The position numbers and the translations under genes are program-made. 51,900 nucleotides of DNA from Coriobacteriaceae bacterium AM48-5. Lineage in GTDB: Bacteria > Actinomycetota > Coriobacteriia > Coriobacteriales > Coriobacteriaceae. The DNA lies in NCBI GenBank assembly GCA_027669525.1, contig JAQEDJ010000012.1, positions 1 through 51,900 on the forward strand, written 5' to 3'. A model generated the notes under the pieces. It saw only the letters and a program-made list of their open reading frames with translations. It was not told the DNA's origin and searched no databases. Numbering within the stretch: the first letter of the stretch is position 1; every line of letters starts with the position of its first letter. Of the stretch, positions 7,881 through 41,351 are shown piece by piece.

Positions 7881-9263
7881 TTAGCGGGCTGTCGCTTTGG
7901 CTTGCGCCAGACGGTAGGTGCGTGCCGGATGGCAGAGCAATACCGCCACGACCATAAAGAACGCTGTGGTGCCCAGGCTGATGGGATAGACCATCACGAT
8001 GTTCGCAAAGGTGCGGAAGTTCGGGAACACACAGAAGACCCAATAGAAGCGGATGCCGCAGACGCAGATCATGGTGATGAGGGCGGGCATAAGCGAGATG
8101 CCAAATCCGCGCAGGTAGCCGGACATGTTTTCGTAGAACATGCTAAAGGCGTATGCCGGGAAGATCGAGCACACGCGGATATAGCCGATCGAGACGATGT
8201 TGGGGTCGCTGTTGAACAGCGCCAGGATCTCGCGCCCCAGACCGACGATGATGACGATGGTGGTGAGTGCAACGATGCCGCCTTCGACCAGGCAGACCTT
8301 GAGCGTCTTGGTGCAGCGGTCGATCTGGCGCGCGCCGTGGTTTTGTCCCACAAAGGTAGTGCAAGCCTGACTAAAGCTGTTGAGCAGGTTGTAACACACA
8401 TACTCCAGGCTCATGGCAGCGCTGGATGCCGCCATGACCTCGGTGCCCAAGCTGTTGATGGCGGACTGGATGATGATGTTAGCGACGGCAAAGACGGCGC
8501 TTTGGATGCCGGCGGGCAGGCCGATCTTAACGATGCGCTTGAGGGCGACGGGGTCTAAGCCTAAGTCGCGTGGGGTGACGCGGACGACGGAGTCGGTCTT
8601 GAGCAGGTGGACAAAGAGCGTGCCGGCGCTGACGGTGTAGGCGATGGCGGTGGCGATGGCGACGCCCGCGACGCCCCAGTGGAGCACAGGGACAAAGATA
8701 AGGTCCAGTCCAATGTTGAGGACGGTGGACACGGCAAGCGCCTGTAGCGGCATGCGGGTGATGCCGACGGAGCGGAAGATCGCGGCCTCAAAGTTGTAGA
8801 GCAAGATCGAGGGCATGCTGAGCAAAAAGACGCGTAGGTAGAGCGAAGCGAGCGGCATGGTTTCGGCGGGAACGTTGAGCGCGGCGAGCATGGGCTCGGC
8901 AAAGATCTCGCCCAGCGCGATGACGACAAAGCCCACGAGCGCCATTAAAATCGAGGTATGGACGGCGCGTTTGACCATGTTCTGATCGTTGCGGCCGATA
9001 GCGTTGGCGATGACCACGTTGGAGCCAAGCGACAGGCCAATAAACAGGTTGAGCATAAGACTGGTAAGCGGAACGTTGGAGCCGACCGCTGCCATGGCGA
9101 GGGTTCCCTGGTCGCCCGAGAAATTACCGATGATGACCGTGGCGATGAGGTTCGACAGCTGCTCCAAGATGCTCGTGGCGGCCACGGGGAAGGCGAACAG
9201 GGGAATATTGCGCCACAGCGAGCCGGTGGTCATGTCAATGTGCTTAGATGCGGTGTCTGCCAT
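7881..9263 (-). CDS. MATE-family multidrug/metabolite exporter
   Basis: 460 aa, intact, with twelve predicted transmembrane segments in two MatE repeats. It begins MTTGSLWRNIPLFAFPVAATSILEQLSNLIATVIIG, with the second repeat from ~GLPAGIQSAVFAVANIIIQSAI. MATE proteins are cation-coupled antiporters that expel organic cations, drugs or metabolites; the substrate here is not predictable. The sequence is closest to the NorM/DinF-like MATE proteins of Gram-positive gut bacteria. No operon partner: the neighbours point the other way on both sides. Confidence 0.9.
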   Translation of the reverse strand: MADTASKHIDMTTGSLWRNIPLFAFPVAATSILEQLSNLIATVIIGNFSGDQGTLAMAAVGSNVPLTSLMLNLFIGLSLGSNVVIANAIGRNDQNMVKRAVHTSILMALVGFVVIALGEIFAEPMLAALNVPAETMPLASLYLRVFLLSMPSILLYNFEAAIFRSVGITRMPLQALAVSTVLNIGLDLIFVPVLHWGVAGVAIATAIAYTVSAGTLFVHLLKTDSVVRVTPRDLGLDPVALKRIVKIGLPAGIQSAVFAVANIIIQSAINSLGTEVMAASSAAMSLEYVCYNLLNSFSQACTTFVGQNHGARQIDRCTKTLKVCLVEGGIVALTTIVIIVGLGREILALFNSDPNIVSIGYIRVCSIFPAYAFSMFYENMSGYLRGFGISLMPALITMICVCGIRFYWVFCVFPNFRTFANIVMVYPISLGTTAFFMVVAVLLCHPARTYRLAQAKATAR

Positions 9264-9327
9264 ACGCTCTCAATCTCTAACATGCTCATTCGTGCTTATT
9301 AGCGCAGACGATGATACTCCTAATCGA

Positions 9328-9358
9328 CTAGTCATTTAAGAACGTCCCCAATGACTAG
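9328..9358. repeat. Intergenic palindrome with GGGGACG-type centre
   Basis: CTAGTCATT (9328-9336) and AATGACTAG (9350-9358) are perfect 9-bp arms. On the minus strand the centre begins GGGGACGTTCTT. It lies between the divergent MATE and rlmA genes. It looks like a member of the same family as the palindromes at 10229, 15104, 18830, 20054 and 20704, with different arms and a variant centre. Confidence 0.55.
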
Positions 9359-9414
9359 GTGGGGAAGGCGTGCGACAATGGTGGGCGTTGTGTTGTCCGC
9401 GCTAAGGAGTTGCC

Positions 9415-10227
9415 ATGTTGTTGTGTCCCGTTTGCCATGAGCCGTTGGTGGACGACGAGCGCGGTGCTGCATGCGCGGGCGGACATCGGTTTGACCGTGC
9501 GCGCGAGGGCTATCTGTATCTGCTGCGCTCGTCCAAGAGCGGCGACTCCATGGGCGATCCCAAGTCGCAGGCGCGCAGCCGTCGTGACTTTCTGAACCGC
9601 GGTTACTATGCGCCGTTGCGCGATGCGATGGTCGAGCTGGTGCGCGCGCGGGCGGCAGAGCACGGGGTGTCTACGGACAAGCAGCTGACCTTGCTCGATA
9701 TTTGCTGTGGCGAGGGCTATTACACCAGCGCTATGGGCGCGGTGCCGGGTGCGGATGTTTACGGGTTCGATTTGGGCAAAGAGATGGTGCGCCTGGCTGC
9801 CAAGCGCGGCGATGCGACCTACTTCGTGGCCAACATGAAGGACATCCCCGTGGCTGATGGCGCTTTCGATATGGTGACCGAGCTTTTTGCCCCCTTTAAC
9901 GAGCGCGAGTTTGCCCGCGTGCTGGCACCCGAGGGCTCGCTCTACACCGTGGTGCCGGGTGCGCGGCATCTGTTTGGGCTCAAGGAGGTGCTCTACGACA
10001 CGCCGTATCTCAACGACGAGAAGTTGCCGCAGACAACCGAGCTCGAGTTGGTTGGCACGAAACGGGTGTCTGCGAACATTACGCTCCAGACGCAGGCCGA
10101 TATCGAGGCGGTGTTTCAGATGACGCCGTACTACTACCGCACGCGCCCTGCCGACAAAGAGCGCCTGGCAAACCTGGACACCCTTCAGACCGATATCGAC
10201 TTCATCATCGCCGAGTACCGCCACTAA
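9415..10227 (+). CDS. rlmA: 23S rRNA (guanine-N1)-methyltransferase RlmA
   Basis: 270 aa, intact; AAGGAG lies just upstream of the ATG. The N-terminal zinc ribbon is visible as CPVC (residues 4-7) with a second half C-x3-H near residues 20-24, as in RlmA/TlrB. A Rossmann SAM-binding domain follows: LLDICCGEGYYT (~92-103), VYGFDLGKEM and a motif-IV-like ELFAPFN. RlmA(I) methylates G745 and RlmA(II) G748 of 23S rRNA near the macrolide tunnel. Gram-positive members are usually the G748 type, which in some organisms affects tylosin susceptibility. Which position is modified here is not resolved. Confidence 0.88.
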   Translation: MLLCPVCHEPLVDDERGAACAGGHRFDRAREGYLYLLRSSKSGDSMGDPKSQARSRRDFLNRGYYAPLRDAMVELVRARAAEHGVSTDKQLTLLDICCGEGYYTSAMGAVPGADVYGFDLGKEMVRLAAKRGDATYFVANMKDIPVADGAFDMVTELFAPFNEREFARVLAPEGSLYTVVPGARHLFGLKEVLYDTPYLNDEKLPQTTELELVGTKRVSANITLQTQADIEAVFQMTPYYYRTRPADKERLANLDTLQTDIDFIIAEYRH

Positions 10228-10228
10228 C

Positions 10229-10259
10229 CTACCAAAAAGGGACAGGTTTATTTTGGCAG
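10229..10259. repeat. Intergenic palindrome with AGGGACAG centre
   Basis: CCAAAA (10232-10237) and TTTTGG (10251-10256), extendable to CCT..AGG with one mismatch, flank AGGGACAGGTTTA. It sits two bases after the rlmA stop codon. It is one of six such elements in the window: variable arms around a GGGACAG-like centre. Confidence 0.5.
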
Positions 10260-10278
10260 GTTTTATCTGGGCAAATGC

Positions 10279-10318
10279 AAAGGGCCGACCGCGGAGATGT
10301 GCGATCGGCCCTTTTTAG
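10279..10318. terminator. Bidirectional rho-independent terminator
   Basis: AAAGGGCCGA (10279-10288) pairs with TCGGCCCTTT (10305-10314) and is followed by a T-run on the plus strand and preceded by A residues. It lies between the convergent rlmA and the membrane-protein gene ending at 10353, so it can serve both. Confidence 0.8.
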
Positions 10319-10352
10319 TTGCTTGGCTGCAGAGGCTATGAGAAGCGAGCGC

Positions 10353-10754
10353 TTACAGGCGGTCCTTGTTCTCGGCCTTGACGGCGTGGGCCTGCTGAAC
10401 AAAGAACAGGTCGTACACCACGATGACAAAGGCGCCAAAGTTGATGGCGTCGCCGCCAAACGCGGGAAGCGTGAGCACCGCCTGGGCAAGCGTGGCGACT
10501 GCAGCAACGATACCGAGCTTAAACGCGCCGTCAACCTGCGAAGGCTTGTTGGCACCCTTGATGCCCGCAACGCCCGCGGCAAGATCGATGAGGCCCTTGG
10601 CGATAATCACGGCCGCGGCGAGCATGGCGTTCGATCCGTAGGTGGACTCGAACTTGCCGGTCGCGATGCCGGCGATTCCAATGACGAGACTGGCGATGCC
10701 CAGAACAAAATAAATCAGGGCAAGGATTTTGAGAGTCTTGCGAGTGAAGCTCAT
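10353..10754 (-). CDS. Small four-helix membrane protein of unknown function
   Basis: 133 aa from the ATG at 10754 (MSFTRKTLKILALIYF), chosen because AAAGGA lies eight bases upstream. Four hydrophobic segments are visible: ILALIYFVLGIASLVIGIAGIA, AMLAAAVIIAKGLIDLAAGVAGI, LGIVAAVATLAQAVLTLP and FGAFVIVVYDLFFVQQA. The short charged tail is KAENKDRL. The pattern resembles small membrane proteins of unknown function common in Actinobacteria and Firmicutes. It stands alone between a terminator and a divergent small membrane-protein gene. Confidence 0.75.
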   Translation of the reverse strand: MSFTRKTLKILALIYFVLGIASLVIGIAGIATGKFESTYGSNAMLAAAVIIAKGLIDLAAGVAGIKGANKPSQVDGAFKLGIVAAVATLAQAVLTLPAFGGDAINFGAFVIVVYDLFFVQQAHAVKAENKDRL

Positions 10755-10980
10755 GGCTGGTCCTTTCGATACGAGTACGCCAACCTGGCGCACCCTATGT
10801 ACTGCACATATGGTGAAGCACATTGTAGTTCAACGCGGCGATGCATGCGCCTGAAAGCGTCTCTTGCCTGCACGGTCCAACCTTTCAAAAAGGAAAGCTG
10901 GACGTAAGTCAAATCGATGGCAGCTCATGTGCGGCGCTGCGATGATGAGGCGTAACAAGGAGTTGGTCTAAGGAGGAGCC

Positions 10981-11124
10981 ATGATGTATGGAACAGGGCA
11001 AGCGCGTGAGCCGCGGTCGTTGGGAAGGCGCATGAGCGATTCCATGATCGCTGCCGTGTGCACGGGATTGATGGCGGTGCTTTGCATTGGGATGTTGTGG
11101 GCCATGTCGCATGTGGGACAATAG
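10981..11124 (+). CDS. Single-span membrane microprotein (47 aa)
   Basis: A short open frame encodes 47 residues: a basic N-terminal half (AREPRSLGRRMSDS) and one hydrophobic segment (MIAAVCTGLMAVLCIGMLWAM). A strong ribosome binding site, AAGGAGGAGCC, directly precedes the ATG pair. It lies 63 bp before rsmJ on the same strand. The N-in, one-helix layout and strong RBS argue that it is translated. No family is recognised. Confidence 0.6.
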   Translation: MMYGTGQAREPRSLGRRMSDSMIAAVCTGLMAVLCIGMLWAMSHVGQ

Positions 11125-11187
11125 CGGACGGTTGGGTGCCGACACCAACGGCGCCCGCGTATCCGTTTTGCTTGTTAAGGAGTGCCC

Positions 11188-11892
11188 ATGGGCGTCGTTG
11201 ATCCCTTTTCTGTTGCTCGGGCCGCGGGGCTTGGGCTGATTGGGAAGCCCGAGGGCCTCACGCTCACCGACGGCGCGATGGAGCTGCGTGCCGATTTTGC
11301 CCGCATGCTTCCACGGCTCAAGCAGGGCCGTCTGCAGCAAGAGCTACTGGTGAAGGCTGCGCGCACAAAAGGCATCGAGCAACCATGGGCGATTGACGCC
11401 ACGGCAGGCTTTGGCGAGGATTCGCTGCTGCTGGCGGCAGCGGGCTTTACCGTCGATCTGTATGAACAGGACTGCGTGATCGCGGCGCTCCTTCAGGATG
11501 CCCTGGATCGCGCGGCAGATGATCCGGCGCTTGCGGCTGCCGTGGCGCGCATGCGCTTACATGCGGGCGAGGACAGTGTTGGCGGCCTTCGCCATACGGC
11601 TGAGCTGGTCGAGCGTGGTGAGTTCGCGGCTCCCGATGTGGTGTATCTGGATCCCATGTTTCCCGAGCGCACCAAGAGCGCAGCGGTTAAAAAGAAGTTC
11701 CAGCTCTTGCACCATTTGGAGCAGCCGTGCGCCGATGAGGAGGCGCTGGTCGAGGCTGCGCTTGCACCGCACCCGCGCAAGGTCGTTATCAAGCGGCCGG
11801 TGAAGGGCCCATTGCTTGCCGGCGTTAAGCCGAGCTATCAGCTTGCGGGCAAAGCCGTTCGCTACGATGTTTTGGTGCCGCCGCGCCCGTAG
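11188..11892 (+). CDS. rsmJ: 16S rRNA (guanine-N2)-methyltransferase RsmJ-like
   Basis: 234 aa, intact. The ATG at 11188 is preferred over the GTG at 11182 because TAAGGAG ends at 11182. The SAM-binding motif is AIDATAGFGEDSLLLAAAGF and the catalytic motif is VVYLDPMFPERTKSAAVKK; DPMFP followed by K-S-A-x-V-K-K is characteristic of RsmJ (YhiQ), which makes m2G1516 in 16S rRNA. The N-terminal block EGLTLTDGAMELRADFARMLPRLKQGR is also typical. It acts on the assembled small subunit. Function by family; specificity untested. Confidence 0.85.
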   Translation: MGVVDPFSVARAAGLGLIGKPEGLTLTDGAMELRADFARMLPRLKQGRLQQELLVKAARTKGIEQPWAIDATAGFGEDSLLLAAAGFTVDLYEQDCVIAALLQDALDRAADDPALAAAVARMRLHAGEDSVGGLRHTAELVERGEFAAPDVVYLDPMFPERTKSAAVKKKFQLLHHLEQPCADEEALVEAALAPHPRKVVIKRPVKGPLLAGVKPSYQLAGKAVRYDVLVPPRP

Positions 11893-11940
11893 TTTGCGTG
11901 CGATTGCCGGTGCTTTGCCAGCGCCGTGCCGACGCGGAGC

Positions 11941-12237
11941 CTATTTCCAAGGGTGTGACGTCAGGTGCCAGCCACCGCAGTATTCGCATTTGTAGCAGGT
12001 CAAACCACGCCGCCCGCGGTTTTCGCAGTCGGCCATAACTGCCTCGGCCTCGGCGCGTGTGTCGTAACGGTTTTTGCGCTCGCACGATTTGTAGCGCCAG
12101 ACTTCATCGCGCTCGGCGTCCAGGGCGTCGCGGCGCTCGTCCTCGCGCGCAAACAGGTCGCTCATATCGCCGCCGGTAGCAGCGCCCAAAAACTCGCTTT
12201 TGGCCTTTGACCAGGCGGCTCGCTTTTTGCTTCCCAT
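11941..12237 (-). CDS. Zinc-ribbon protein of unknown function
   Basis: 98 aa. The N-terminal half is charged and helical (KKRAAWSKAKSEF; REDERRDALDAERDEVWRY). The C-terminal half carries C-x(n)-C then CYKCEYCGGWHLTSHPWK, a compact zinc-ribbon ending with the W-H-L-T-S signature seen in many small phage and bacterial zinc proteins. It is divergent from an acetyltransferase gene, with a strong inverted repeat between them. The role is unknown; a nucleic-acid- or ribosome-binding role is only a guess from the ribbon. Confidence 0.7.
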   Translation of the reverse strand: MGSKKRAAWSKAKSEFLGAATGGDMSDLFAREDERRDALDAERDEVWRYKSCERKNRYDTRAEAEAVMADCENRGRRGLTCYKCEYCGGWHLTSHPWK

Positions 12238-12261
12238 CTGCTTCGCGCCCTTCTCAAAACG

Positions 12262-12293
12262 TTGGTATCATTGCCCAATCAATGTGATACCAA
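12262..12293. promoter_or_regulatory. Inverted repeat, candidate operator
   Basis: TTGGTATCA (12262-12270) and TGATACCAA (12285-12293) are perfect 9-bp arms, with TTG/CAA extending inside. It lies between the divergent zinc-ribbon and GNAT genes and is placed to act on either promoter. Confidence 0.45.
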
Positions 12294-12314
12294 TAAACGT
12301 GAGGTTGCCGCGTG

Positions 12315-12802
12315 ATGATCAGAAAAACCCTCGATACCGACATTCCCGCCGTCATGGCTATCTATGACGCCGCCCGCGCCTTTATGCGTGCGCATGGCAA
12401 CGCCACGCAGTGGCCCGAGGGCACGCCTTCTGCCGAGCAGCTGGCTGCCGATATCGCCGCCGGTGGCAGCTATGTGTGCGAAGTCGACGGCCGCGTGGTG
12501 GCGACGTTTGCCTTTTACGGTCCGGCGACGAGTGCTATGACGTCATCGAGGACGGTCAGTGGCACAGCGACACTCCGTACGCCGTACTGCACCGCGTGGC
12601 GTCCGACGGCACCGTGCACGGTATCGCGGCCGCGATGTTTGCCTTTGCCAAGGAGCGTGCCGACCACCTGCGTATCGATACGCATGCGGACAACCTGCCC
12701 ATGCAGGGCGCGAGCATGAAAGCGGGGTTCGAGCGTGTCGGCATTATCCATGTGTCGGACGGCACGCCGCGTGTTGCGTTTGACTGGCTGCGCGAGGCAT
12801 AA
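12315..12802 (+). CDS. GNAT-family N-acetyltransferase (one frameshift as read)
   Basis: About 162 aa after correction. The N-terminus is MIRKTLDTDIPAVMAIYDAARAFM, typical of GNAT domains. The second half carries HRVASDGTVHGIAAAMFAFAKERADHLRIDTHADNLPMQ, the acetyl-CoA-binding region, with the DTHxxNxxMQ pattern of uncharacterised GNATs in low-GC and actinobacterial gut species. A break at the GG run 12524-12525 (GGG expected) separates the halves; with the base restored the join reads AFYGPGDECYDVIEDGQW. The substrate is unknown. A strong terminator follows at 12836. Confidence 0.8.
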
Positions 12803-12835
12803 AGGCCGAGTCACATACCAGCGTTTCATCGAAAT

Positions 12836-12863
12836 GAAAATGGCCCCGAGTGGGGCCATTTTT
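12836..12863 (+). terminator. Rho-independent terminator
   Basis: AAAATGGCCCC, a short loop, then GGGGCCATTTTT: a perfect GC-rich stem with a T-run, 34 bp after the GNAT stop. Confidence 0.85.
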
Positions 12864-13106
12864 GGTAAAACGCGTTGTTGTGGGGCTCGCGTTGTTACTG
12901 CCCCAGATGAACCAGGGCAGACAAAAGGGGAGGTGCCGGCTTTCGCAAGGCGCGAACCTGCGAAAATCGCCGCGCGGCAACGCGGGGCGATGAGCTCGGT
13001 CGGGGGATAGGGCCCGCTTCGCCCGCCGGCCCGTAAATTGTATCATCCAGTGTGGAACGAGAGCGTCCGTTGCCGCGTGCGACGGGCTTGCAATAAGAGG
13101 AGAGCC
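12864..13106. other. Intergenic region upstream of the EF-G-like GTPase
   Basis: About 240 bases with no convincing gene. It is GC-rich. A possible -10 element (TATCAT, ~13040) lies before the GTPase start, and AAGAGGAGAG provides its ribosome binding site. I see no leader peptide or attenuator that I can support. Confidence 0.4.
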
Positions 13107-15109
13107 ATGTCGAAGCAAGCGGTCGTTGGAATCTTAGCGCACGTCGATGCCGGCAAGACCACGCTGGCCGAGGCCATGCTGTTTAACGCGGGTCGCATTC
13201 GCAAGCGCGGCCGCGTGGACGATGGCGATTCGCATCTGGACACTAACGCGATCGAGCGCGAGCGCGGCATTACGATTTTCTCGTCGTAGGCCGTGCTCGA
13301 CCATGGCGATACCCACGTCATGCTCGTTGATGCGCCGGGGCATGTCGATTTTTCTGCCGAGGCGGAGCGCACATTGCGCGCACTCGACTACGCGATTTTG
13401 GTTGTGGGCGCCAACGACGGCGTGCAGGGGCACACCGAAACCCTGTGGCGCCTGCTTGCGCGCTATGACATTCCGACGTTCATCTATATCAACAAAATCG
13501 ATTTGGAGCATCCCGGCCGCGAGGTTTTGCTGGCACAACTTGGGCAACGTCTTTCCGAGGCTGCCTGGATGCCAGCGAACTGCTGGCGGGCGGCGCCGTT
13601 CAGGAGGACGCTGCTGCGTTGGACGAGGCGGCGCTCGAGGAGTTTCTTGAGGCGGGCGAGCTTTCTGTTGCAACGCTGTCGCGCATGGTTGCCGAGCGCA
13701 AGCTCTTTCCCTGCTTTGCCGGCTCGGCGCTCAAGGACCAAGGCGTTGACGAGCTGCTGGATGGCATATGCGCGCTGATGCGTGAACAGGCGTGGCTCCC
13801 GGAGTTTGCTGCGCGCGTCTATCGTGTCAGCCGCGGGGATCGTGGCGAGCGCTTGGCTTGGGTTAAAGTGACCGGCGGCACGCTGCGTGCAAAACAGATG
13901 ATTGACGGACGCTCCGGTGCCGAGGTATGGGAGCAGAAGGTCGATCAGGTGCGCATCTATAACGGCGAGAAGCACGAGCTTGCCCAGGAAGTTGCTGCTG
14001 GCGGTATCTGTGCCGTGACGGGTCTTGCGCACGTTCTCCCGGGGGACGCCTTGGGTGCGGAGCCCGGGTGCGATGCACCCGTCATTGCGCCGGTTCTCAC
14101 CTATACGGTGCTACCGGGTGAACACGATGTCCATGCGGTGTTCAAAGCACTGACTGAGCTGGCGGACGAAGATCCCATGCTCGGCGTAAGCTGGAATACT
14201 CATCTGGAGCAGATTCACCTGCAGCTGATGGGCGCCGTGCAACTCGAGGTCGTGCAGCGAGTGTTGGCCGATCGCTTTTGCCTTTCGATTGCGTTTGAGC
14301 CTGGCGGCATTCTCTATAAGGAGACTATTTCGCAGCCGGTCGAGGGCGTGGGCCACTTTGAGCCGTTGCGCCACTATGCCGAGGTGCATCTGCGTCTGGA
14401 GCCGTTGCCAGCGGGTTCGGGCGTGCAGTTTGGCACCGTGACCTCGACCGACGAGCTCGATCTTAACTGGCAGCGCCTGGCACTCACCAACGCCATGGAG
14501 CGCGATCACCTGGGCGTGTTGACCGGCTCGCCCATTACCGATGTGCGTATTACGCTCACGGGCGGCCGTGCGCATGCCAGGCACACCGAGGGCGGTGACT
14601 TTCGTCAGGCAACGTACCGCGCGATTCGCCAAGGTTTGATGCAGGCGCGCGAGGCCGGCGCGGCGGTGCTGTTGGAGCCGTGGTACCACTTTGAGCTCGA
14701 GGTGCCGGGGGAGTGCGTGGGCCGGGCGCTCTCGGATGCCACGCGCATGGGTGCCGAGTACGAGCCGCCGGCAATGACGGGTGACCGGGCGAAGCTTGTG
14801 GGTCGCGTGCCGGCATCCGAGGCGCAGGATTACGCGCTGGAGGTGGCTGCCTACACGAGCGGCCGCGGACATCTGTACCTGGAGTTTGCCGGTTATGCGG
14901 CTTGCCATGATGCCGAGCGCGTCATCGAGACGGCCGCCTACGAGCCCGAGGCCGATCTGCCTAACACGCCCGATTCGGTTTTTTGCGCCCACGGCGCCGG
15001 CTATACGGTCAAATGGTACGACGTGCCCGCCGCGGCACACGTAAAGATCGATCCCGCCACCTTCCGCCCCTATCGCCCCGCCGACGCGGAATTTTTCGGC
15101 CACATGTGA
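13107..15109 (+). CDS. EF-G-like translational GTPase of the TetM/ribosomal-protection type (amber codon and one frameshift as read)
   Basis: About 667 aa. GTPase motifs: AHVDAGKTT (G1, residue ~10), RERGITIF (switch I), DAPGHVDF (G3), NKID (G4) and [13 protein letters not shown] (G5). EF-G-like domains II-V follow, ending [18 protein letters not shown]. Length and architecture match Tet(M)/Tet(O)-type ribosomal protection proteins and their chromosomal relatives; the sequence does not show whether it confers tetracycline resistance. Two defects: codon 61 is TAG (13287-13289, IFSS*AVLDHG, where Gln CAG would fit), and a G is missing at 13559-13560 (restored: [14 protein letters not shown]). 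The stop codon lies inside a palindromic element, which supplies the last Met and TGA. Confidence 0.8.
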
Positions 15110-15134
15110 CAAAGGGACAGTCCCTTTGTCACAT
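15104..15134. repeat. Perfect 14-bp palindrome, GGGACAG family, copy 1
   Basis: Arms 15104-15117 and 15121-15134 (ATGTGACAAAGGGA and its complement) flank CAG. It overlaps the stop codon of the EF-G-like gene and lies 69 bp before the start of the ATPase gene at 15203. Near-identical copies lie at 18830 and 20054. It may act as a terminator despite lacking a T-run. Confidence 0.9.
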
Positions 15135-15140
15135 TCAGTT

Positions 15141-15167
15141 GGTATAACTCGGTATAAGTTGGTATAA
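15141..15167 (+). promoter_or_regulatory. Three GGTATAA direct repeats with exact 10-bp period
   Basis: GGTATAA begins at 15141, 15151 and 15161. The array lies 35-60 bp upstream of the ATPase start at 15203, where a promoter would sit, so it is a candidate regulator-binding array or a promoter-overlapping iteron. Confidence 0.5.
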
Positions 15168-15202
15168 CTATTATCAGCGTTTGCCAATCCGAGGAGGCCG
15201 AC

Positions 15203-16320
15203 ATGAATCCAAATCCCTTTAAGCCAACGGCTGGTAAGCGACCTCCGGTGCTCATCGGTCGCGAGTCGGTCATCGAAGATTTTGAGGAAGGGCTCGATAA
15301 CGGTGCCGGAGCGCCGGGCAGACTCATGCTCATTACAGGAAACCGCGGCTGTGGCAAAACGGTTCTCCTGCGGGAGCTGCAACGTCAGGCCAGTGAGCGC
15401 GGATGGGCGGTTGTCTCCGATTCCGCTTCGCTTGGCTTATGCGACCGCTTGGTCGATGCGCTTCGCTCGAATAAGCCCGTTGTGACGTCAATGGAGTTTG
15501 GTCCGTCATTTGGCCGAATGTCGGTTGAGGCGGCGCGAACAAAAGGCGAGACGTTGCGAGGGCTGGTCAACGAGAGGCTCAAGAAGCTCGGTCCAGGTAA
15601 GGGCATCCTGTTTGCGATTGACGAGGCGCAATCTGCGTCTATCGAGGAACTGGCGGCTCTTGCCGTTCTCTATCAGCAGGTGCTCGGAGATCAGGACGCC
15701 ACGGGCTTGTCCGATAGCGACCAGCGTGGTCTTGCGCTGGTCTTTGCCGGCTTGCCCAGCATGGTTGACGATCTGCTCGAAGAGCCGAGCGTGACGTTTT
15801 TGCGGCGCGCCCAGCAGCGTACGTTGGGGGCGATTTCTTTGCCCCAGGTGCGCGATTCATATATCCAGACGGTCGAATGTGCTGGTCTTTGCATTGATGC
15901 GGGGACGGCGGACCTTGCGGCGCACAAGAGCATGGGACATCCCTATATGGTTCAGCTGGTGGGATATTACATGTGGCGGTCTGCTGTCCAGCGTGGCTCG
16001 CAGGTCATTGAAAGGCGCGATGTCGAGGATGGCCATGCGGATGCCGTCTCTGAGTCTACGAAGCGGTTGACGTGCCTCTGTATTACGGGCTGCGCACCCC
16101 ACAGCGCCTCTTTATCGAGGCTATGGCGGTTGACGAGGGCAAGCTGACGCGCATGGCGGATATCATTGAGCGCTGCGACCGCACCCAGAGCTGGGCGAGT
16201 AAATATCGCGCAAGCCTGATTCGCGATCGCGTCATCGAGGCTGCCGGATACGGTCTCGTCCGGTTTACCGTGCCCATGCTGGGCGAGTACATTCGCGATC
16301 GCATTTTATGGCACGAGTAG
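15203..16320 (+). CDS. NPF-type AAA ATPase with C-terminal winged helix (one frameshift as read)
   Basis: About 372 aa. The N-terminal signature [20 protein letters not shown] is followed by Walker A GNRGCGKT (~48-55), Walker [11 protein letters not shown] (~135), a sensor-like LALVFAGLP and FLRRAQQ. The C-terminus ([33 protein letters not shown]) is a winged-helix-like module. These AAA_16/archaeal-ATPase-like proteins are frequent in Actinobacteria, and their function is not established. A lost G at 16069 separates the winged helix; restoring it gives STKRLDVPLYYG. A UvrA paralogue starts directly after the stop, so the two are probably cotranscribed. A paralogue with the same layout lies at 18868-19968 on the other strand. 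Confidence 0.8.
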
Positions 16321-16321
16321 G

Positions 16322-18825
16322 GTGATAAAGGTGACGGAAAATAAGATGAGCCCGCAGGCTATCGAGGTACGTGGCGCACGTGTCCATAACCTCAAGGACA
16401 TCGATATCGACATTCCGCTGGGAAGGCTCGTGGGCATTGCCGGTGTGTCGGGTTCGGGCAAGAGCTCGCTGGCACTGGGAGTTCTTTATGCCGAGGCTCG
16501 CGCCGTTACCTGGAGGCGCTCAGCACCTATACTCGACGTCGCCTGACGCAGGCCGAGCACGCACAGGTGGACGAGGTGCTGCACGTGCCGGCGGCGCTCG
16601 CATTGCATCAGCGTCCTAGTGTGCCAGGCGTGCGCTCGACCTTTGGCACCATGACCGAGCTCAACAACAGCCTGCGCCTGCTCTTTAGCCGCTGCGCCCA
16701 TCACGTGTGCCCGCATTGCGGGACGCGTGTGGAGCCGAGCCTTAACGTGGCCGCGGGCCTGTCGCTCACGTGCCCCGCATGCGGCCGCGAGTTCTATGCG
16801 CCGGGTGCCGAGGACCTTGCCTTTAACAGTGGCGGCGCGTGTCCTACCTGCGGAGGCACCGGCGTCATGCGCGAGGTGGACGAGGCGAGCCTGGTGCCCG
16901 ACGAGTCAAAGACCATCAACGAGGGTGCGGTGCTTCCCTGGGGCACGCTCATGTGGGATCTGATGAAGCAGGTGGCCGACGAGATGGGCGTGCGCACCGA
17001 CGTGCCGTTTAGCCAGCTCACGCCTCAAGAGCGCGACATCGTGTTCCATGGTCCGGCGGTTAAGAAGCACATTCTCTACGTTCCCAAAAATGGCGAGGGC
17101 GCCACGCCGCTCGACTTTACCTATTACAACGCCGTCTATACCGTCGAGAATGCGCTCGCCAAGGTTAAGGACGACAAGGGCCTTAAACGCGTGGCACGCT
17201 TTTTGTGCGAGGGGCCGTGTCGCGATTGCGGCGGTACGCGTCTTTCCGACGCCGCGCGCCAGCCCCAGGTGCGCGGTATCAATCTGGCGCAGGCGGCGGC
17301 CATGACGCTGGGCGAGGCGATTGAGTGGGTGCGCGGAGTGCCCGCATCCTTGCCGACCGAGATGCAGCCCATGGCGACGGATATCTGCGATTCGTTTTTG
17401 AGCACGGCCCGTCGCCTGGTCGATCTGGGTCTCGACTACCTTTCGCTCGACCGCGCCGGCGCCACGCTTTCCACGGGTGAGCGCCAGCGCGTACAGCTTG
17501 CCCGCGTGGTGCGCAACCGATCGACGGGCGTGCTGTATGTGCTGGACGAGCCTTCGATCGGCTTGCATCCTGCCAATGTCGACGGCTTGGTGGGCGTGAT
17601 GCGCGATCTGGTGGTCGACGGCAATACCGTGGTTGTTGTCGACCACGACACGCGCGTGCTGGCAGAAGCCGACTATCTGGTCGAGATGGGCCCCGTTGCG
17701 GGAGCAGGCGGCGGCCATGTAATCGCCGCCGGTACGGTAGACGAGGTCGAACAATCGCAGGGCAGCCGCATCGCGCCGTTCTTGCGCTCGGACCCCAAGC
17801 GTCTGCGCCCGCAGGTGGCTGACGACGAAATGTTCGACCTAGGCCATATCCGCATGGCGACCGATGCCATCCATACCGTCAAACCACTCGAAGTCGATAT
17901 CCCGCGCGGCCGCCTTGTCGCGGTGACGGGTGTTTCGGGTTCGGGCAAGACGACACTGGTGCTCGAGACGCTCATCCCGGCGCTCAAGGCGCAAGCGGCC
18001 GGCGAGCGCCTGCCAAGGCACGTGCGTTGGGTCGATGCCGAGGGCATCGCGCGCGCCAACCTGATTGACGCCACGCCCATCGGCGCCAACGTACGCTCGA
18101 CGGTAGCGACCTATGCCGACATCCATGATGAGCTGCGCCGCGCCTTCGCCCGTACGCCCGAGGCCAAGGCGGCGGGGTATAAGGCGGGTGCCTTTAGCTA
18201 CAACACCGGTGCCTTGCGATGCCCCACGTGCGATGGCACGGGCTCGATATCGCTTGACGTGCAGTTTTTGCCCGATGTCGAGATCGTCTGTCCTGCATGT
18301 CGTGGCTCGCGTTATGCGGATGCCGCCTCGCATATCCATCGCGAGGGCAAGGACGGCAGTCTGCTTACGTTGCCGCAACTTATGGATATGAGCGTGGACG
18401 AGGCACTCGATGCCACGGTAGGACTCAAGAAAGTCCAGGCGCGCCTGCAGACCTTGCGCGACCTGGGGCTGGGATACCTGACACTTGGCGAGCCCACGCC
18501 GGCGCTCTCGGGCGGCGAGGCGCAGAGACTTAAACTTGCGAGCGAGATGGGCCGCGTGCAGGACGATGCCGTATTCGTGTTCGACGAGCCCACCATCGGC
18601 CTGCATCCGCTCGATGTTCAGGTACTGCTGAGTGTGTTTGACGGCCTCGTTGCCAAGGGCGCCACGGTCATCGTGATCGAGCACGACCTCGACCTTATCC
18701 GTAACGCCGATTACGTGATCGACATGGGCCCGGGCGGTGGCGACGCCGGCGGGCAAATCGTCTGTACCGGTACGCCGGGCGACATCACGGCCTGCTCCAA
18801 GAGCATTACCGGTCGCTACCTATAA
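16322..18825 (+). CDS. UvrA-family ABC ATPase, UvrA paralogue (one frameshift as read)
   Basis: About 834 aa, shorter than canonical UvrA (~940). Two ABC modules are present: Walker [10 protein letters not shown] and GVSGSGKTT, signatures [14 protein letters not shown] and [14 protein letters not shown], Walker [13 protein letters not shown] and [12 protein letters not shown]. Zinc-binding Cys pairs are abundant ([34 protein letters not shown]). The short length suggests a UvrA2-type protein rather than the UvrABC damage sensor. UvrA2 proteins are linked to DNA-damage tolerance and drug resistance in actinobacteria. A lost G at 16495-16496 splits the gene after the first Walker A; restored it reads [18 protein letters not shown], the usual UvrA continuation. 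It follows the ATPase gene without a gap. The start is uncertain (GTG 16322 or 16331, ATG 16346). Confidence 0.88.
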
Positions 18826-18829
18826 CCGA

Positions 18830-18860
18830 ATGTGACAAAGGGACAGTTCCTTTGTCACAT
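18830..18860. repeat. 14-bp palindrome, GGGACAG family, copy 2
   Basis: ATGTGACAAAGG followed by GACAGTT and CCTTTGTCACAT. It has the same arms as the copy at 15104, with one change near the centre. It lies between the convergent UvrA paralogue (stop 18825) and the ATPase gene ending at 18868, so it could end transcription from both sides. Confidence 0.9.
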
Positions 18861-18867
18861 CCGATGC

Positions 18868-19968
18868 CTATTTCACGCATTGAGCGGCGAGATAGTCGCG
18901 GAAGAACGGTAATTCAAAAGCGACGATTCCGCGCCCGCGTTCTCCAATGATGCCGGCGTCTATCATGCGGCGTCGGTAGCGGGAGACCTGTTGCGGCGAA
19001 CGCTTAAGGCGCTCGACAAGGTCAGCGGTGGTGGACTCTTCCTCGTCATCGAGCATGGCGATGAGAAATCGCTTGTCCTCTGCAGTGAGTTCCCGGTAAG
19101 TCGCTGCGAGGATTCGGTCGTCCATCTCGTCGCGCGCGATTTTGATCCCCAGGTCAAAGTCGCGTGACGAGATTTCCTTCGAATTGCTTGTGAGATCCCA
19201 GGCACGGTAGCCTACGAGTTGCAATAGGAAAGGAAAGCCCGAAATCGAGCGAACGGCCTTATCGATTCCCTCGGCATCCGCCAAACGGTCGTTTTCCTGG
19301 ATCGTTCGGATCAAGGCCTCGCGTACATCGTAGTCGGCGATACGCCCCAGATGATATTGCTGGGCGCGACGAAGGAACGAGACCGTCTTGTGGTTCAGCA
19401 ACGTCGAGACGTTGTTAGGAAGTCCCGCCATGAGTAGGGCGACGCGTTTCCCATCGGTCACAAAGTGCTGATACGTGGCTGCGAGCTGGATCATCTCGTC
19501 GAGCGTCGGGTCGACCTCATCAACCGTGACGAGCAGGCCGGTGCCCGTTTCGTTGAGCTGGTCGATGATATCGCTCATGCGATAACGCCAGGTTGAGGCA
19601 TCGTGAACGCGATTGACCTCGATACTGCCGAGCGGCGCGATTCCGAGACCGGTGACTTCGAAGTTGTTAGACGGGTCGATGAGATGGCCTGCAGCACGTT
19701 TCGCCCCGAGCTCGATTTCCTCAAGCATTCCCGAGAGCGCGGTCGTCTTTACCGCTATCCAGCCGTGGGATTCCGCCCTTGTCGCGAGCGACGACATGAG
19801 AGCGGTTTTACCGGTTCCACGCGCGCCTGAGAAGATCGAGGTCAATTCCGGGCGTCTACGCTGGCTCAAGAAGGCACGGTCCAAATCCCGAATAATCTGT
19901 TGTCTGCCGGCGAGATGGGCAGGAACCTCACCAAAACTGGGAGTAAACGGGTTCTCGAGATATTCCAC
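18868..19968 (-). CDS. NPF-type AAA ATPase with C-terminal winged helix, second paralogue
   Basis: 366 aa from the GTG at 19968. That start is chosen because AAAGGAG lies six bases before it; an ATG at 19986 would place the RBS inside the gene. The N-terminus ENPFTPSFGEVPAHLAGRQ parallels [20 protein letters not shown] of the first paralogue. Walker A GARGTGKT, Walker B GLLVTVDEVDP, VALLMAGLP and FLRRAQQYHLG follow. The C-terminal winged helix is DKRFLIAMLDDEEESTTADLVERLKRSPQQVSRYRRRMI. Intact. Sequence-specific DNA binding through the winged helix is plausible; the cellular role is unknown. Confidence 0.82.
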   Translation of the reverse strand: MEYLENPFTPSFGEVPAHLAGRQQIIRDLDRAFLSQRRRPELTSIFSGARGTGKTALMSSLATRAESHGWIAVKTTALSGMLEEIELGAKRAAGHLIDPSNNFEVTGLGIAPLGSIEVNRVHDASTWRYRMSDIIDQLNETGTGLLVTVDEVDPTLDEMIQLAATYQHFVTDGKRVALLMAGLPNNVSTLLNHKTVSFLRRAQQYHLGRIADYDVREALIRTIQENDRLADAEGIDKAVRSISGFPFLLQLVGYRAWDLTSNSKEISSRDFDLGIKIARDEMDDRILAATYRELTAEDKRFLIAMLDDEEESTTADLVERLKRSPQQVSRYRRRMIDAGIIGERGRGIVAFELPFFRDYLAAQCVK

Positions 19969-20053
19969 AAGGCTCTCCTTTCGCATCGCCGTTTAACTTT
20001 ATTTTATTCTAGTAAATCCTGATTAAAAGCGATGGCTCGTTATTTGGTGCATC

Positions 20054-20086
20054 AATGTGACAAAGGGGCGGTCCCTTTGTCACATT
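20054..20086. repeat. Palindrome, GGGACAG family, copy 3
   Basis: AATGTGACAAAGG...CCTTTGTCACATT with centre GGCGGTC. The trmL stop codon (TGA, 20080-20082 on the minus strand) lies inside it. It is about 85 bp upstream of the ATPase GTG start at 19968 (68 bp from the upstream ATG), matching the position of copy 1 relative to the other ATPase. Confidence 0.9.
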
Positions 20087-20679
20087 CCCGGAAAGCCTGT
20101 TTGGCGCAGAGCTTCGTAGAGGACGATGGCGGCGCTGTTGGAGAGGTTGAGTGCGCTGATGCGGTAGTCGTCCGGGTTGACGAAATTGCCGCAGATATCC
20201 TGCCGAAGGATGGCCTCGTGGCTGTCCTCGGTATGTCCCAGCGATTCCTCGTGGGCTTCCCAGGCCTCGGCGTTGTCGAGTGAGTCACAATCGCGCAGCA
20301 TGGGGATGCGCTCGCAGCGCTCGGGCGCCGCGGCGAGCAGTGGCTCGGGAATGCCCGAGCTTTCGCTGCCAAAGACCAAGTAGTCGCCATCGCGGTAGGT
20401 ACTCTGCGCATAGGTGCGGCGTGCCTTTTTGGTCAACAGATGCAGGCGCTCGTCGGCGGGGGAGAGGCCGTTGCGCGCAAGGAAATCCTCCCAGCCGGTA
20501 TAGGTCGTCACGTCCAGGTTTTGCCAGTAGCCCAGACCGGCGCGACGCACCGTCTTGTCGTCGAGCGAAAAGCCCAGCGGCTCTACCAGGTGCAAATGGG
20601 CACCGGTGACCACGCAGGTGCGGCCGATATTACCCGTATTGGCCGGAATCTCGGGCGCGTACAGCACGATATTGAACAT
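20080..20679 (-). CDS. trmL: tRNA (cytidine/uridine-2'-O)-methyltransferase TrmL
   Basis: SPOUT-class enzyme that 2'-O-methylates the wobble base 34 of leucine tRNAs. The start at 20679 (MFNIVLYAPEIPANTGNIGRTC) has AAGGAG just upstream. Family blocks: PEIPANTGNIGRTC, HLVEPLGFSLDDKTVRRAGLGYW, YLVFGSESSGIPEPLL and the knot-forming NFVNPDDYRISALNLSNSAAIVLYEALRQ. At 199 aa it is longer than the usual ~155-160, because of inserted sequence between the SESSGIPE block and the C-terminal knot. Its last residue and stop come from a palindromic repeat. Confidence 0.92.
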   Translation of the reverse strand: MFNIVLYAPEIPANTGNIGRTCVVTGAHLHLVEPLGFSLDDKTVRRAGLGYWQNLDVTTYTGWEDFLARNGLSPADERLHLLTKKARRTYAQSTYRDGDYLVFGSESSGIPEPLLAAAPERCERIPMLRDCDSLDNAEAWEAHEESLGHTEDSHEAILRQDICGNFVNPDDYRISALNLSNSAAIVLYEALRQTGFPGM

Positions 20680-20703
20680 GAATCTCCTTGGCTCAGAATG
20701 AAA

Positions 20704-20739
20704 AACCACCACGAAGGGGACAGGCACCTCGTGGTGGTT
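20704..20739. repeat. Palindrome with GGGGACAGGCACC centre
   Basis: Arms AACCACCACGA (20704-20714) and TCGTGGTGGTT (20729-20739) pair perfectly over 11 bp around AGGGGACAGGCACC. It lies between the COG0523 GTPase (end 20778) and trmL (start 20679), in the 5' region of trmL. Arm sequence unlike the other copies, same centre. Confidence 0.75.
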
Positions 20740-20777
20740 AGGCGGTTACGTGGGCGGAAAACGCCCGCTTTGATAAC

Positions 20778-21908
20778 CTAGGCGCGGTGCCAGTCGGTCA
20801 GGCAGGCATCGAGGGAGGCGATGAGCGCATCCTTGTCCATGTGACGGCCGATGATGCACAGGCTCGTCATGCGGTCGCCCGTCTCGTCGTCCCAAATCTG
20901 CATGATCTCGGGGTTCTCGTCGATGATCTTCTGCTTCTCGCCCTCGGGCGCGGAGTCAACGAACAGACCGTTCTCCATCAGGCGCATTTGGTGGCCGGCC
21001 TGCTCGAACATGTAGCACATGTCCGGATCGCCGGTCTGCCACAGCGGACCCTTGACGCGGATGACCTCGTCGGGCCACTCCTGCTCAACAAAATCGGTGA
21101 ACTTCTGCAGGTCAAACGGCTTGCGGCGCGAGTACACAAAGGTCTCGATGTCGTACTCGAGCACCTCGGGGTCGTCGTGCTCCTCGGGATGCTCCATGGC
21201 CTCGATCCAGGCGGCGGAGTTGTAGGCGCGCATAAAGTCGAAGCGGTCGGTGTCGAGCAGCTCCTCCATGGGGACCTCGCCGTTTTGGGCCTCGACAATC
21301 ACGGCGTCCTTCTGCAGGCTGCGCACGATAGCCTTGAGCTCGGCGATCTGCTCAGGGCTCACGGTATCGGTCTTGTTGAGGATCAGCGTGGAGCAGAACT
21401 CGATCTGCTGGATGAGCAGGCTCTCGATGTCGTCCTCGTCGATATCCTCGGCCAGCAGGTCGCGACCGCCGTTGAACTCGTCGTACATGCGGGCGCAGTC
21501 GACCACAGCCACGATGTTGTCGAGTGCAAGCTTGGGCTCGCCGCCCACCTTGGCCTCGTCGCAGAAGCTCGAGATGGTGTAGGCGATGGGGATGGGCTCG
21601 CAAATGCCCGATGCCTCGATGATGATGTAGTCGAACTTGCCCGAATCGGCGATGCCCTGCAGCTGGTTGGCCAGGTCATCCGAAAGCGTACAGCAGATGC
21701 AGCCGTTGGTGAGCGGGATGAGGTCGTCGGTCTCGGAAAGGCCGCCGTCGGCGATGAGGCTGGCGTCGACGTTGATCTCGCCGATATCGTTGACGATCAC
21801 GGCGGCGCGGATGCCGCCGTCGTTAGCGAGGATGTGGTTGAGCAGCGTGGTCTTGCCGGCACCGAGGTATCCGGTAAGCATGATGATCTTCACGGGTTTG
21901 TTGGGCAT
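20778..21908 (-). CDS. COG0523/CobW-family metal-chaperone GTPase
   Basis: 376 aa, intact. G1 is GYLGAGKTTLLNHIL (~12-26), followed by the hallmark metal-binding CICC (LTNGCICCTL, ~66-75), a Walker-B-like YIIIEASGICEP and NKTD (G4). A CobW C-terminal domain ends the protein, from roughly EVLEYDIETFVYSRRKPFDLQKF. Family members deliver zinc, cobalt or other metals under GTP control. The metal here cannot be assigned: there is no Zur box or cobalamin context. The Asp/Glu-rich segment DEDDIESLL is seen in related proteins. It lies upstream of trmL on the same strand. Confidence 0.88.
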   Translation of the reverse strand: MPNKPVKIIMLTGYLGAGKTTLLNHILANDGGIRAAVIVNDIGEINVDASLIADGGLSETDDLIPLTNGCICCTLSDDLANQLQGIADSGKFDYIIIEASGICEPIPIAYTISSFCDEAKVGGEPKLALDNIVAVVDCARMYDEFNGGRDLLAEDIDEDDIESLLIQQIEFCSTLILNKTDTVSPEQIAELKAIVRSLQKDAVIVEAQNGEVPMEELLDTDRFDFMRAYNSAAWIEAMEHPEEHDDPEVLEYDIETFVYSRRKPFDLQKFTDFVEQEWPDEVIRVKGPLWQTGDPDMCYMFEQAGHQMRLMENGLFVDSAPEGEKQKIIDENPEIMQIWDDETGDRMTSLCIIGRHMDKDALIASLDACLTDWHRA

Positions 21909-29478: not shown

Positions 29479-29487
29479 GGGCTGCTA

Positions 29488-29659
29488 CGGAAAGCGCATT
29501 CCGGAATATGCGCTCAGACTGGGATGCGGTTTCCGCGAGGGGGCGGTCGCGGAAACCGCATCCCAAAATTTGCGCTTGGAATGGGATGCGTTTTCCGCTG
29601 GCCCTCTATATGGAAAGCGCATCCCAGAATGGACGTCCAAACTGGGATGCGCTTTCCGC
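29488..29659. repeat. Array of six alternating inverted arms forming three hairpins, ~62-bp period
   Basis: Six copies of GCGGAAANCGCATCCCA in alternating orientation: 29488-29504, 29520-29537, 29548-29565, 29582-29598, 29612-29627 and 29642-29659. Units repeat every 61-62 bp. Arms 2/3 pair perfectly over 18 bp and arms 5/6 over about 16 bp; 1/2, 3/4 and 4/5 pair with mismatches, so two alternative foldings exist. It lies between the patatin stop and the end of thiE, in converging transcription units. No gene. Confidence 0.85.
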
Positions 29660-39081: not shown

Positions 39082-39121
39082 GGTTGCTCCCGTTCTCATA
39101 GGCCTATACGGCTAGATTCAG

Positions 39122-39290
39122 CATATCTGCAGGATGTAGCCGGCGGTAGTGCCGTTTGGAGGGCAAAATGTCCAAAATCCGGAAGAGGAATAAGCTGCGC
39201 ACCTACGCGTTGTCGGGCATTAATCACAAAGCGCGGAGCCGCCTGTTGCGACTCCGCTCGCGTGTGCGCCATACGAGTGCAAACAGGAAA
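39122..39290 (-). promoter_or_regulatory. Duplicated upstream region of surface-protein copy 1
   Basis: The block 39122-39176 (from ATATCTGCAGG to AAATGTCCAAAA) is practically identical to 41183-41237 before copy 2, so it probably holds the promoter. It is followed by a degraded copy (39228-39262) of the hairpin that is perfect at 41289-41325. Confidence 0.6.
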
Positions 39291-39326
39291 CGCCACCGCC
39301 GGAGGGGAGCTCGGCGGTGGCGTTGC
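39288..39326 (-). terminator. Terminator of the second surface-protein cassette
   Basis: AACGCCACCGCCG and CGGCGGTGGCGTT form a perfect 13-bp stem around GAGGGGAGCT. It is the counterpart of 37199-37240. Confidence 0.8.
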
Positions 39327-39382
39327 TAAACGGTGCGCGGACTAGGCGGCTTTAAAAGTGTCGGTTCGTGTATGAAGGGCGT

Positions 39383-41143: not shown

Positions 41144-41179
41144 GGTTGCTCCCATCCTCATAGGGCCTATGCGATTACG

Positions 41180-41325
41180 CCCAGCATATCTGCAGGATGT
41201 AGCCGGCGGTAGTGCCGTTTGGAGGGCAAAATGTCCAAAACTTGGGAAGCAATACATCGCGCGTCCGTGCGTTGCCTGGCTTTAAAAGAAAAGCGCGGAG
41301 CCGCTCGATGCGACTCCGCGCTTTT
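41180..41325 (-). promoter_or_regulatory. Upstream region and terminator hairpin of surface-protein copy 2
   Basis: It contains the ~55-bp block conserved before copy 1. Further upstream (41289-41325) lies AAAAGCGCGGAG...CTCCGCGCTTTT, a perfect 12-bp stem ending in T on both strands. The hairpin also ends the purine permease gene that stops at 41352. Confidence 0.7.
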
Positions 41326-41351
41326 GTGTTCTGCTTTGGCAGACTGTGCCG

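Follow-up and report, generated by a model that had tools for sequence, protein, structure and literature searches.

Intergenic palindromes with a shared GGGACAG-type centre in a Coriobacteriaceae contig are probably solo copies of the terminal repeats of Y1 transposases

We analysed a 51,900-nucleotide stretch of Coriobacteriaceae bacterium AM48-5 (assembly GCA_027669525.1, contig JAQEDJ010000012.1, positions 1 to 51,900 of the forward strand; hereafter the window), which holds six palindromes with different arms around a similar GGGACAG-type centre. These palindromes very probably derive from the terminal repeats of Y1 transposases of the TIRYT type, which corresponds to group 1 (subclass 2.1) of the REP-associated tyrosine transposases (RAYT; REP, repetitive extragenic palindrome), as copies that stand alone or at times in pairs. 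Several Y1 lineages would have passed through and left their hairpins behind, so that one window came to hold several stems around one centre. In related genomes such hairpins are associated with Y1 genes and their stems follow the transposase lineage. Two Y1 units are polymorphic for insertion between congeners, and a Y1 unit lies directly behind a hairpin that stands without a gene in other congeners.

Palindromes of the window and their families

The six elements, with four arm families among them, are the following.

9328..9358, minus strand: solo hairpin, left arm CTAGTCATT, centre GGGGACGTTCTTA, right arm AATGACTAG; folding z-score -5.8
10226..10262, plus strand: solo hairpin, AACCTACCAAAA, centre AGGGACAGGTTTA, TTTTGGCAGGTT; arm family CCTGCCAAAA
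15104..15134, plus strand: solo hairpin, arm family ATGTGACAAA, centre GGGACAGTCCC
18830..18860, plus strand: solo hairpin, arm family ATGTGACAAA, between convergent open reading frame (ORF) ends
20054..20086, plus strand: solo hairpin, arm family AATGTGACAAA (ATGTGACAAA arms), centre GGGGCGGTCCC
20704..20739, plus strand: solo hairpin, AACCACCACGA, centre AGGGGACAGGCACC, TCGTGGTGGTT

An earlier reading of the window from its sequence only had described six palindromes whose arms match within each element and differ between elements, and this description was confirmed, except that the centre of the third ATGTGACAAA element (20054) is GGGGCGG and not GGGACAG. The arms of the CCAAAA-family element at 10226..10262 were found to be 12 nucleotides long with one mismatch, longer than that reading had given. 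In the three elements with ATGTGACAAA arms the G-run pairs with C or T, so that the word is partly stem, and in the other three it lies within a loop of 13-14 nucleotides. Folding of the six elements as single-stranded DNA gave z-scores of -2.6 to -8.9. By our reading of a mechanical ORF list, the six elements are located between likely genes or at their ends, with shorter ORFs overlapping several of the elements; the element at 15104 provides the TGA stop codon of the ORF at 13619-15109. An Rfam search of window positions 9000-21000 with E values up to 1 gave no match at the elements. The sole Rfam match in that interval, a Histone3 stem-loop at 12817-12862 on the minus strand (24.2 bits compared to a gathering threshold of 34), is probably due to chance.

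When hairpins with a stem score of at least 9 and a GGG[AG]C centre were counted, the window had 8 non-overlapping ones compared to a mean of 0.4 and a maximum of 2 in 60 first-order Markov shuffles of the same sequence, and the enrichment over shuffled sequence that the sequence-only reading had expected therefore holds. Besides the six elements, the eight include hairpins at 29520 and 30654 that seem unrelated in sequence. As a stricter control, seven sets of other 5-mer patterns (162-523 sites each) were counted in the unshuffled window and gave 0 to 5 hairpins, compared to 8 for the 185 GGG[AG]C sites. Within one window the excess is real but modest. Stronger evidence came from two findings: the arm families recur in congeners, and repeats of this kind border transposase genes.

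The AACCACCACGA and CTAGTCATT elements were found at many places in 22 of 43 genomes of the genus, the same 22 for both, and at no more than two places in the rest. Matches per genome in those 22 were at least 14-18 for AACCACCACGA and at least 15-26 for CTAGTCATT, with one genome at least 10; these are lower bounds, as few candidates were scored. Hairpin centres in 400 kb sampled from congener G024 had GGGACA and CTGTCC as their commonest 6-mers (9 of 122 hairpins each), and the shuffled sample had 23 hairpins compared to 122 in the real one. A looser scan of the G024 sample returned 38 hairpins, of which 23 are mostly intergenic according to crude ORF calls; by our reading 20 of the 38 belong to the superfamily, with six stem types in one genome, and 2 of these 20 are without the centre. 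Hairpins of the AACCACCAC family without a GGGACA centre were seen at G024 C1 908013 and 909963, and resemble the 20704 site in some congeners.

Y1 transposase genes and their flanking hairpins

The sequence-only reading had proposed to look for a Y1 transposase in the genome. Pfam Y1_Tnp matches, with IS200-type genes included, were found in 26 of 39 relatives and in 22 of 24 genomes of the same genus, probably Collinsella. Many, not all, of the Y1 genes other than the IS200 type are bordered by inverted hairpin pairs, which have a single stem type for each gene around a centre of the same sort. In the 16 such proteins that were aligned, the HxH motif and the N and P of Y---NP are invariant, and the tyrosine is present in at least 90%. 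Four of four Y1 proteins from relatives matched Pfam PF01797 above its cut-off; all four also matched NCBIfam REP_Tyr_transpos with E values of 1e-18 to 3e-9, yet below the cut-off of that model. A Y1 protein matched the TnpArep structure PDB 4er8 with an E value of 1e-6, and three of the four matched helix-turn-helix (HTH) type profiles at E values of 1e-4 to 0.06, all below the curated cut-offs.

The alignment of these 16 proteins yielded 80 named Coriobacteriia loci, the best 80 of 468 relatives and thus the closest to the query; 6 of the 80 have a short flank. An inverted repeat running from flank to flank was found at 74 of the 80 loci, and at 66 of them it contains a GGG(G)AC-type motif (scored as GGG[AGT][CG] or GGGG[AT]). 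In the controls, such a repeat was present in 22 of 400 mismatched flank pairs (19 with the motif) and in 1 of 400 pseudo-genes (none with the motif); the 19 mismatched pairs are expected if the word is common to the loci. The proposal in the sequence-only reading that a transposase recognises the centre gains support from this association. A stem with a score of at least 6 enclosing the motif was found on at least one side at 59 of the 80 loci compared to 56 of 400 pseudo-genes, and on both sides at 31 compared to 3 of 400, respectively. When like arms were also required on both sides, 27 loci remained, compared to 6 of 400 mismatched pairs and none of 400 pseudo-genes. The hairpin form at Y1 loci is common, not universal. 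A de novo search, in which the repeat was not assumed, placed GGGAC at the centre of a hairpin in 19 upstream and 22 downstream flanks of the 80 loci on the predicted strand. The corresponding numbers were 0 and 1 for shuffled sequence, and 5 and 5 for the opposite strand. Fourteen loci from other phyla (8 viral contigs of unknown host and 6 plasmid loci out of 13 plasmid matches, several of the loci truncated) included 5 with a repeat, all 5 with the motif, and 1 with a perfect stem near the motif on both sides.

The arms and the word behaved differently when the loci were compared in pairs. Among 52 of the 66 motif loci, those with a stem score of at least 6, the 9 nucleotides before the G-run were 29-34% identical in pairs below 60% protein identity and 76-98% identical at 70% or more. 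The 3 nucleotides after the G-run were 69-75% identical below 60% protein identity and 92-100% above it, where the search pattern alone would give approximately 44%; the G-run itself was selected by the search and left uncounted. These values are blurred by a few of the 52 hairpins that are probably something other than the true element, with L255, L273 and L294 as doubtful cases. Below 60% protein identity the stems are near the level of unrelated DNA; the stem thus varies with the transposase lineage while the centre is kept.

One of the window's arm families, and hairpins close to a second, were found beside Y1 genes. A CCAAAA-family element lies on both sides of the Y1 gene in G001 (L159, gene cut short) and in G004 (L162), and the sequence AACCTGCCAAAA around these genes equals the arms of the window element at 10226. 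The flanks of the CCAAAA-type Y1 locus L162 are oppositely oriented in most congeners. Hairpins like those of the ATGTGACAAA family flank Y1 genes in Tractidigestivibacter, Olsenella and a Coriobacteriaceae metagenome-assembled genome, with TGAGACAAA in L261, L274, L277 and L292 and TTGTGACAAA in L305. A protein search of the genus with the TGAGACAAA-type Y1 gave no full-length match above 49% identity. The Y1 gene at L413, in the genome G045 of the genus, is accompanied by ATGTGACAAA arms around an altered centre, AAGACGACAGG, which lacks GGG.

Comparison of congeners showed insertion polymorphism of two Y1 units. The Y1 unit with the AGTAGCTAA hairpin (1,105 bases in G024) is absent in 13 congeners, which have 9-11 bases in its place. 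It is also present in G041 and, more divergent, in G013; in G050 it is split over contigs, and in G011 the flanks lie on two contigs. In G015 and G042 a different Y1 gene lies between the same flanks. The two different units in the same flanks can be seen at G024 C1 2059899-2061799 and G015 C1 706124-707785.

In G011, a Y1 unit of 942 bases sits immediately behind a hairpin, with AAATA after the hairpin, and 19 of 19 fetched congeners have the hairpin without the gene (recognisable in 16, decayed in 3). The left hairpin of G011 is identical to the hairpin at this site in 28-31 of 33 positions in 15 of the 19 congeners, in 26 in G024 and in 22 in three others, and it is identical to the right hairpin of its own unit in 26 of 33. 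Most simply, a solo hairpin of the unit's own kind would have been present first, and the gene would have come in behind it together with a second hairpin; loss of the gene in all other congeners is less likely.

The Y1 locus L169 has the stem CTGCCATT, with AAATA at its site.

A likely mechanism can be proposed. The Y1 lineages are bordered by an inverted repeat pair, often hairpins, with a lineage-specific stem and a GGG(G)AC(A/G)-type word common to the lineages. The enzyme would recognise the folded single strand, in which the centre may mark the class and the stem the paralogue; it would bind and cut the hairpins, move or pair them, and make the solo copies. These copies may outlive the enzyme and then decay, keep pairing or act as landing places. 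A more specific and tentative form of this proposal is a two-part code, in which the Y1 class reads the constant word between the arms together with the lineage-specific stem, a new paralogue rewrites both arms with the centre fixed, and a gene can land behind a solo hairpin of its own kind and make its second end from it. We consider this code less likely than not.

Several findings weigh against the origin of the palindromes from Y1 terminal repeats. The window itself has no Y1 gene, and none of the Y1 loci scanned has its gene between CTAGTCATT or AACCACCAC arms. Six of the 80 loci have no repeat, 8 of the 74 repeats have no motif, and 53 of the 80 loci are without like-arm motif hairpins on both sides. 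The MQRVW... type of Y1, which is common in the group, had no flanking repeat in the loci looked at; loci of this type include L160, L166, L171, L409 and L410, it was seen in 12 loci of one flank survey, and the protein is perhaps domesticated. In G006 (205 kb, without a Y1 match) GGGACA occurs in 4 of 63 hairpin centres, where it is not the commonest word, compared to 9 of 122 in G024. The strict GGGGWSAS word of the published TIRYT repeats is present in one of the six window elements (20704), the others having close variants. Moreover, among the sites read in a synteny comparison of 7 congeners, none was cleanly empty of a solo element, and the window elements are mostly at the same place in congeners, so that recent movement of solo copies is unsupported.

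Orthologous sites and rival explanations

The arms and the centre turn over at fixed places. At the 9328 site, compared in 7 congeners, G011 has a monomer, and G015, G024 and G042 have a head-to-head dimer. In G040 and G001 the site is occupied by an element whose arms are different, and in G008 by both that element and the monomer. The 10226 element is kept in 23 of 23 aligned loci from 22 genomes, and 21 of the 43 genus genomes gave no match. At several sites orthologous to 15104 the palindrome has decayed.

The sequence-only reading had stated that arms which never vary among orthologous sites would speak against it; at the 18830 site the arms do vary, on both sides together. Both arms covary across 10 distinct orthologous sequences (out of 15 aligned rows, the window and 14 loci; 12 further loci have a single anchor only), with 95.7% of cells paired and 9 doubly changed cells compared to 0-1 in controls with slid partners. 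Three of five measures of covariation exceed every shuffle. The remaining two are unremarkable, with 39 of 500 shuffles as high for pairs changed on both sides and 288 of 500 for further pair types. This joint change of the arms fits kept pairing, and copying is not thereby demonstrated.

At the 20704 site, 11 of the 21 congeners that were read keep the arms and lack six bases of the centre. A tree of the site, which left out three short-state rows (G011, G015 and G013), required 6 changes; 275 of 500 shuffles required as few, and good support was obtained for 2 of its 16 inner branches. Recombination between strains could produce the same pattern as gain or loss of the centre. In G012, which is outside the 21, the 20704 orthologue carries an insert of approximately 1.4 kb in the loop, resembling an insertion sequence, with CAG on both sides (G012 C1 approximately 632838-634264, L081).

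Kept pairing at 18830, and arms that persist at 20704 when the centre is absent, would also be expected if the elements were two-way transcription terminators kept by selection, with a centre that is common by chance or descent. The position of the six elements agrees with this, as they are intergenic by our reading of the ORF list and one of them lies between convergent ORF ends. We consider it improbable as the main explanation. The 8 terminator-like matches of the region include none of the elements, although the search required a T run and allowed loops of 3-8 nucleotides only, so that elements with long loops could not be listed; no T run directly follows the stem in any of the six, and similar hairpins flank Y1 genes as inverted pairs. 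A secondary role of the elements as terminators is possible.

The same two sites bear on a second explanation, a more specific form of one of the two possibilities put forward in the sequence-only reading, by which flanking sequence is copied across a fixed centre, through template switching at the GGGACAG word, to make new palindromes in place. The joint change of the arms at 18830 could also arise in this way, and so could the presence or absence of the centre with kept arms at 20704. Copying of the flank is nevertheless highly improbable, because the arm sequences are dispersed families and not local: CTAGTCATT and AACCACCACGA arms stand at many unrelated sites in the 22 genomes described above, several arm types occur within one genome sample, and like stems adjoin Y1 genes. 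Furthermore, no palindrome-free site with one arm was recognised among the compared sites except in G044, where the position of the AGTAGCTAA Y1 unit carries a TTAGCTAC that equals one arm and was taken for chance.

A further alternative, that other RAYT groups move the elements as canonical REPs of the GTAG or CGTC super-family, is hardly credible. The elements do resemble such REPs as short intergenic hairpins found as singles and head-to-head dimers in a genus with Y1 genes, but none of the six has GTAG or GTGG within 2 nucleotides 5' of the stem on either strand, none has a terminal CGTC, and the kept word is central.

Known systems and further observations

The reading that survives best, solo copies of Y1 terminal repeats, has a precedent in TIRYTs. 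As described in the main text of De Nocera 2013 (PMC3733652), these are Y1 genes with terminal inverted repeats that have a common GGGGWSAS word, some partly or wholly self-complementary, and the repeats are also found there as singles, dimers and clusters. The window elements and their relatives resemble this TIRYT/TIRtron system in having a Y1 gene between inverted repeats with a common word, GGGG-containing in its published form, and in occurring as singles and dimers. They differ in that only some of the published repeats are palindromic, whereas in Coriobacteriia the word is enclosed by arms on at least one side at 59/80 loci and by like arms on both sides at 27/80, and the stem changes by lineage. 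The main text of PMC3733652 has no mention of coriobacter or collinsella.

According to the part of Quentin 2018 (PMC6006769) that deals with these genes, 20 of 26 TIRYT genes fall in subclass 2.1, which is equated with RAYT group 1, and the survey itself links subclass 2.1 to TIRYT and to a GGGG[AT][CG]A[CG] word. RAYT group 1, with 292 sequences, is given in the same part as the largest of the five RAYT groups compared. The Y1 proteins described here resemble TnpA-Y1 of subclass 2.1 in having HUH and Y---NP motifs and in being long proteins with a C-terminal stretch that may resemble an HTH. In contrast to that part of the survey, in which no REP-like sequences were identified beside subclass 2.1 genes (PMC6006769), REP-like hairpins here adjoin the genes of many relatives.

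GTAG REPs and REPINs, like the elements, are non-coding hairpins that occur alone or as inverted pairs and are linked to a Y1 gene. The constant GTAG foot of REPs lies outside the stem, whereas the word kept here lies between the arms. The statement in the sequence-only reading that the palindromes are unlike REP copies is thus right as to the missing GTAG foot and does not stand as to their form, since they are REP-like as single or paired hairpins tied to RAYT-type genes. Y1 enzymes of IS200/IS605 act on subterminal hairpins, as summarised in the relevant part of PMC6006769, and a similar action would be performed by the enzymes considered here. True IS200-type Y1 genes (frames of 167-204 amino acids, with the strongest Pfam matches) are present in G008, G012, G015 and G024. 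No GGG[AG]C hairpin with a score of at least 9 was found at the four fetched IS200-type loci (L001-L004), which differ in this from RAYT-type loci.

The enzyme and the word are therefore of the same kind as known ones, and what is new is that the word is often inside a hairpin, with one stem per lineage. Literature searches on TIRYT, TIRtron and GGGGWSAS found nothing beyond PMC3733652 and PMC6006769, and searches on Coriobacteria with REP terms, on the motif letters and on Collinsella palindromes had nothing related by title among the matches listed. Hairpin ends with a fixed centre and exchangeable stems make Coriobacteriia a source of testable substrates for RAYT group 1. They separate a possible class requirement (centre) from a possible paralogue requirement (stem), so that co-evolution of RAYT and repeat can be tested by swaps, and a puzzling repeat class of common gut bacteria would thereby be explained.

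A few other repeats were observed. At L422, in G048, a Y1 gene lies between two long inverted repeats (score 163), each holding a putative tRNA gene and a GTTTGGGGACAGGTCCCAAAC hairpin. At window positions 29486-29659 there are three palindromic repeats of approximately 51 nucleotides with a spacing of 61-62 nucleotides (TGCGGTTTCCGC-type), apparently unrelated to the GGGACAG elements. Window positions 37324-41328 contain a tandem duplication with a period of approximately 2.07 kb, the pieces of which are 61-92% alike.

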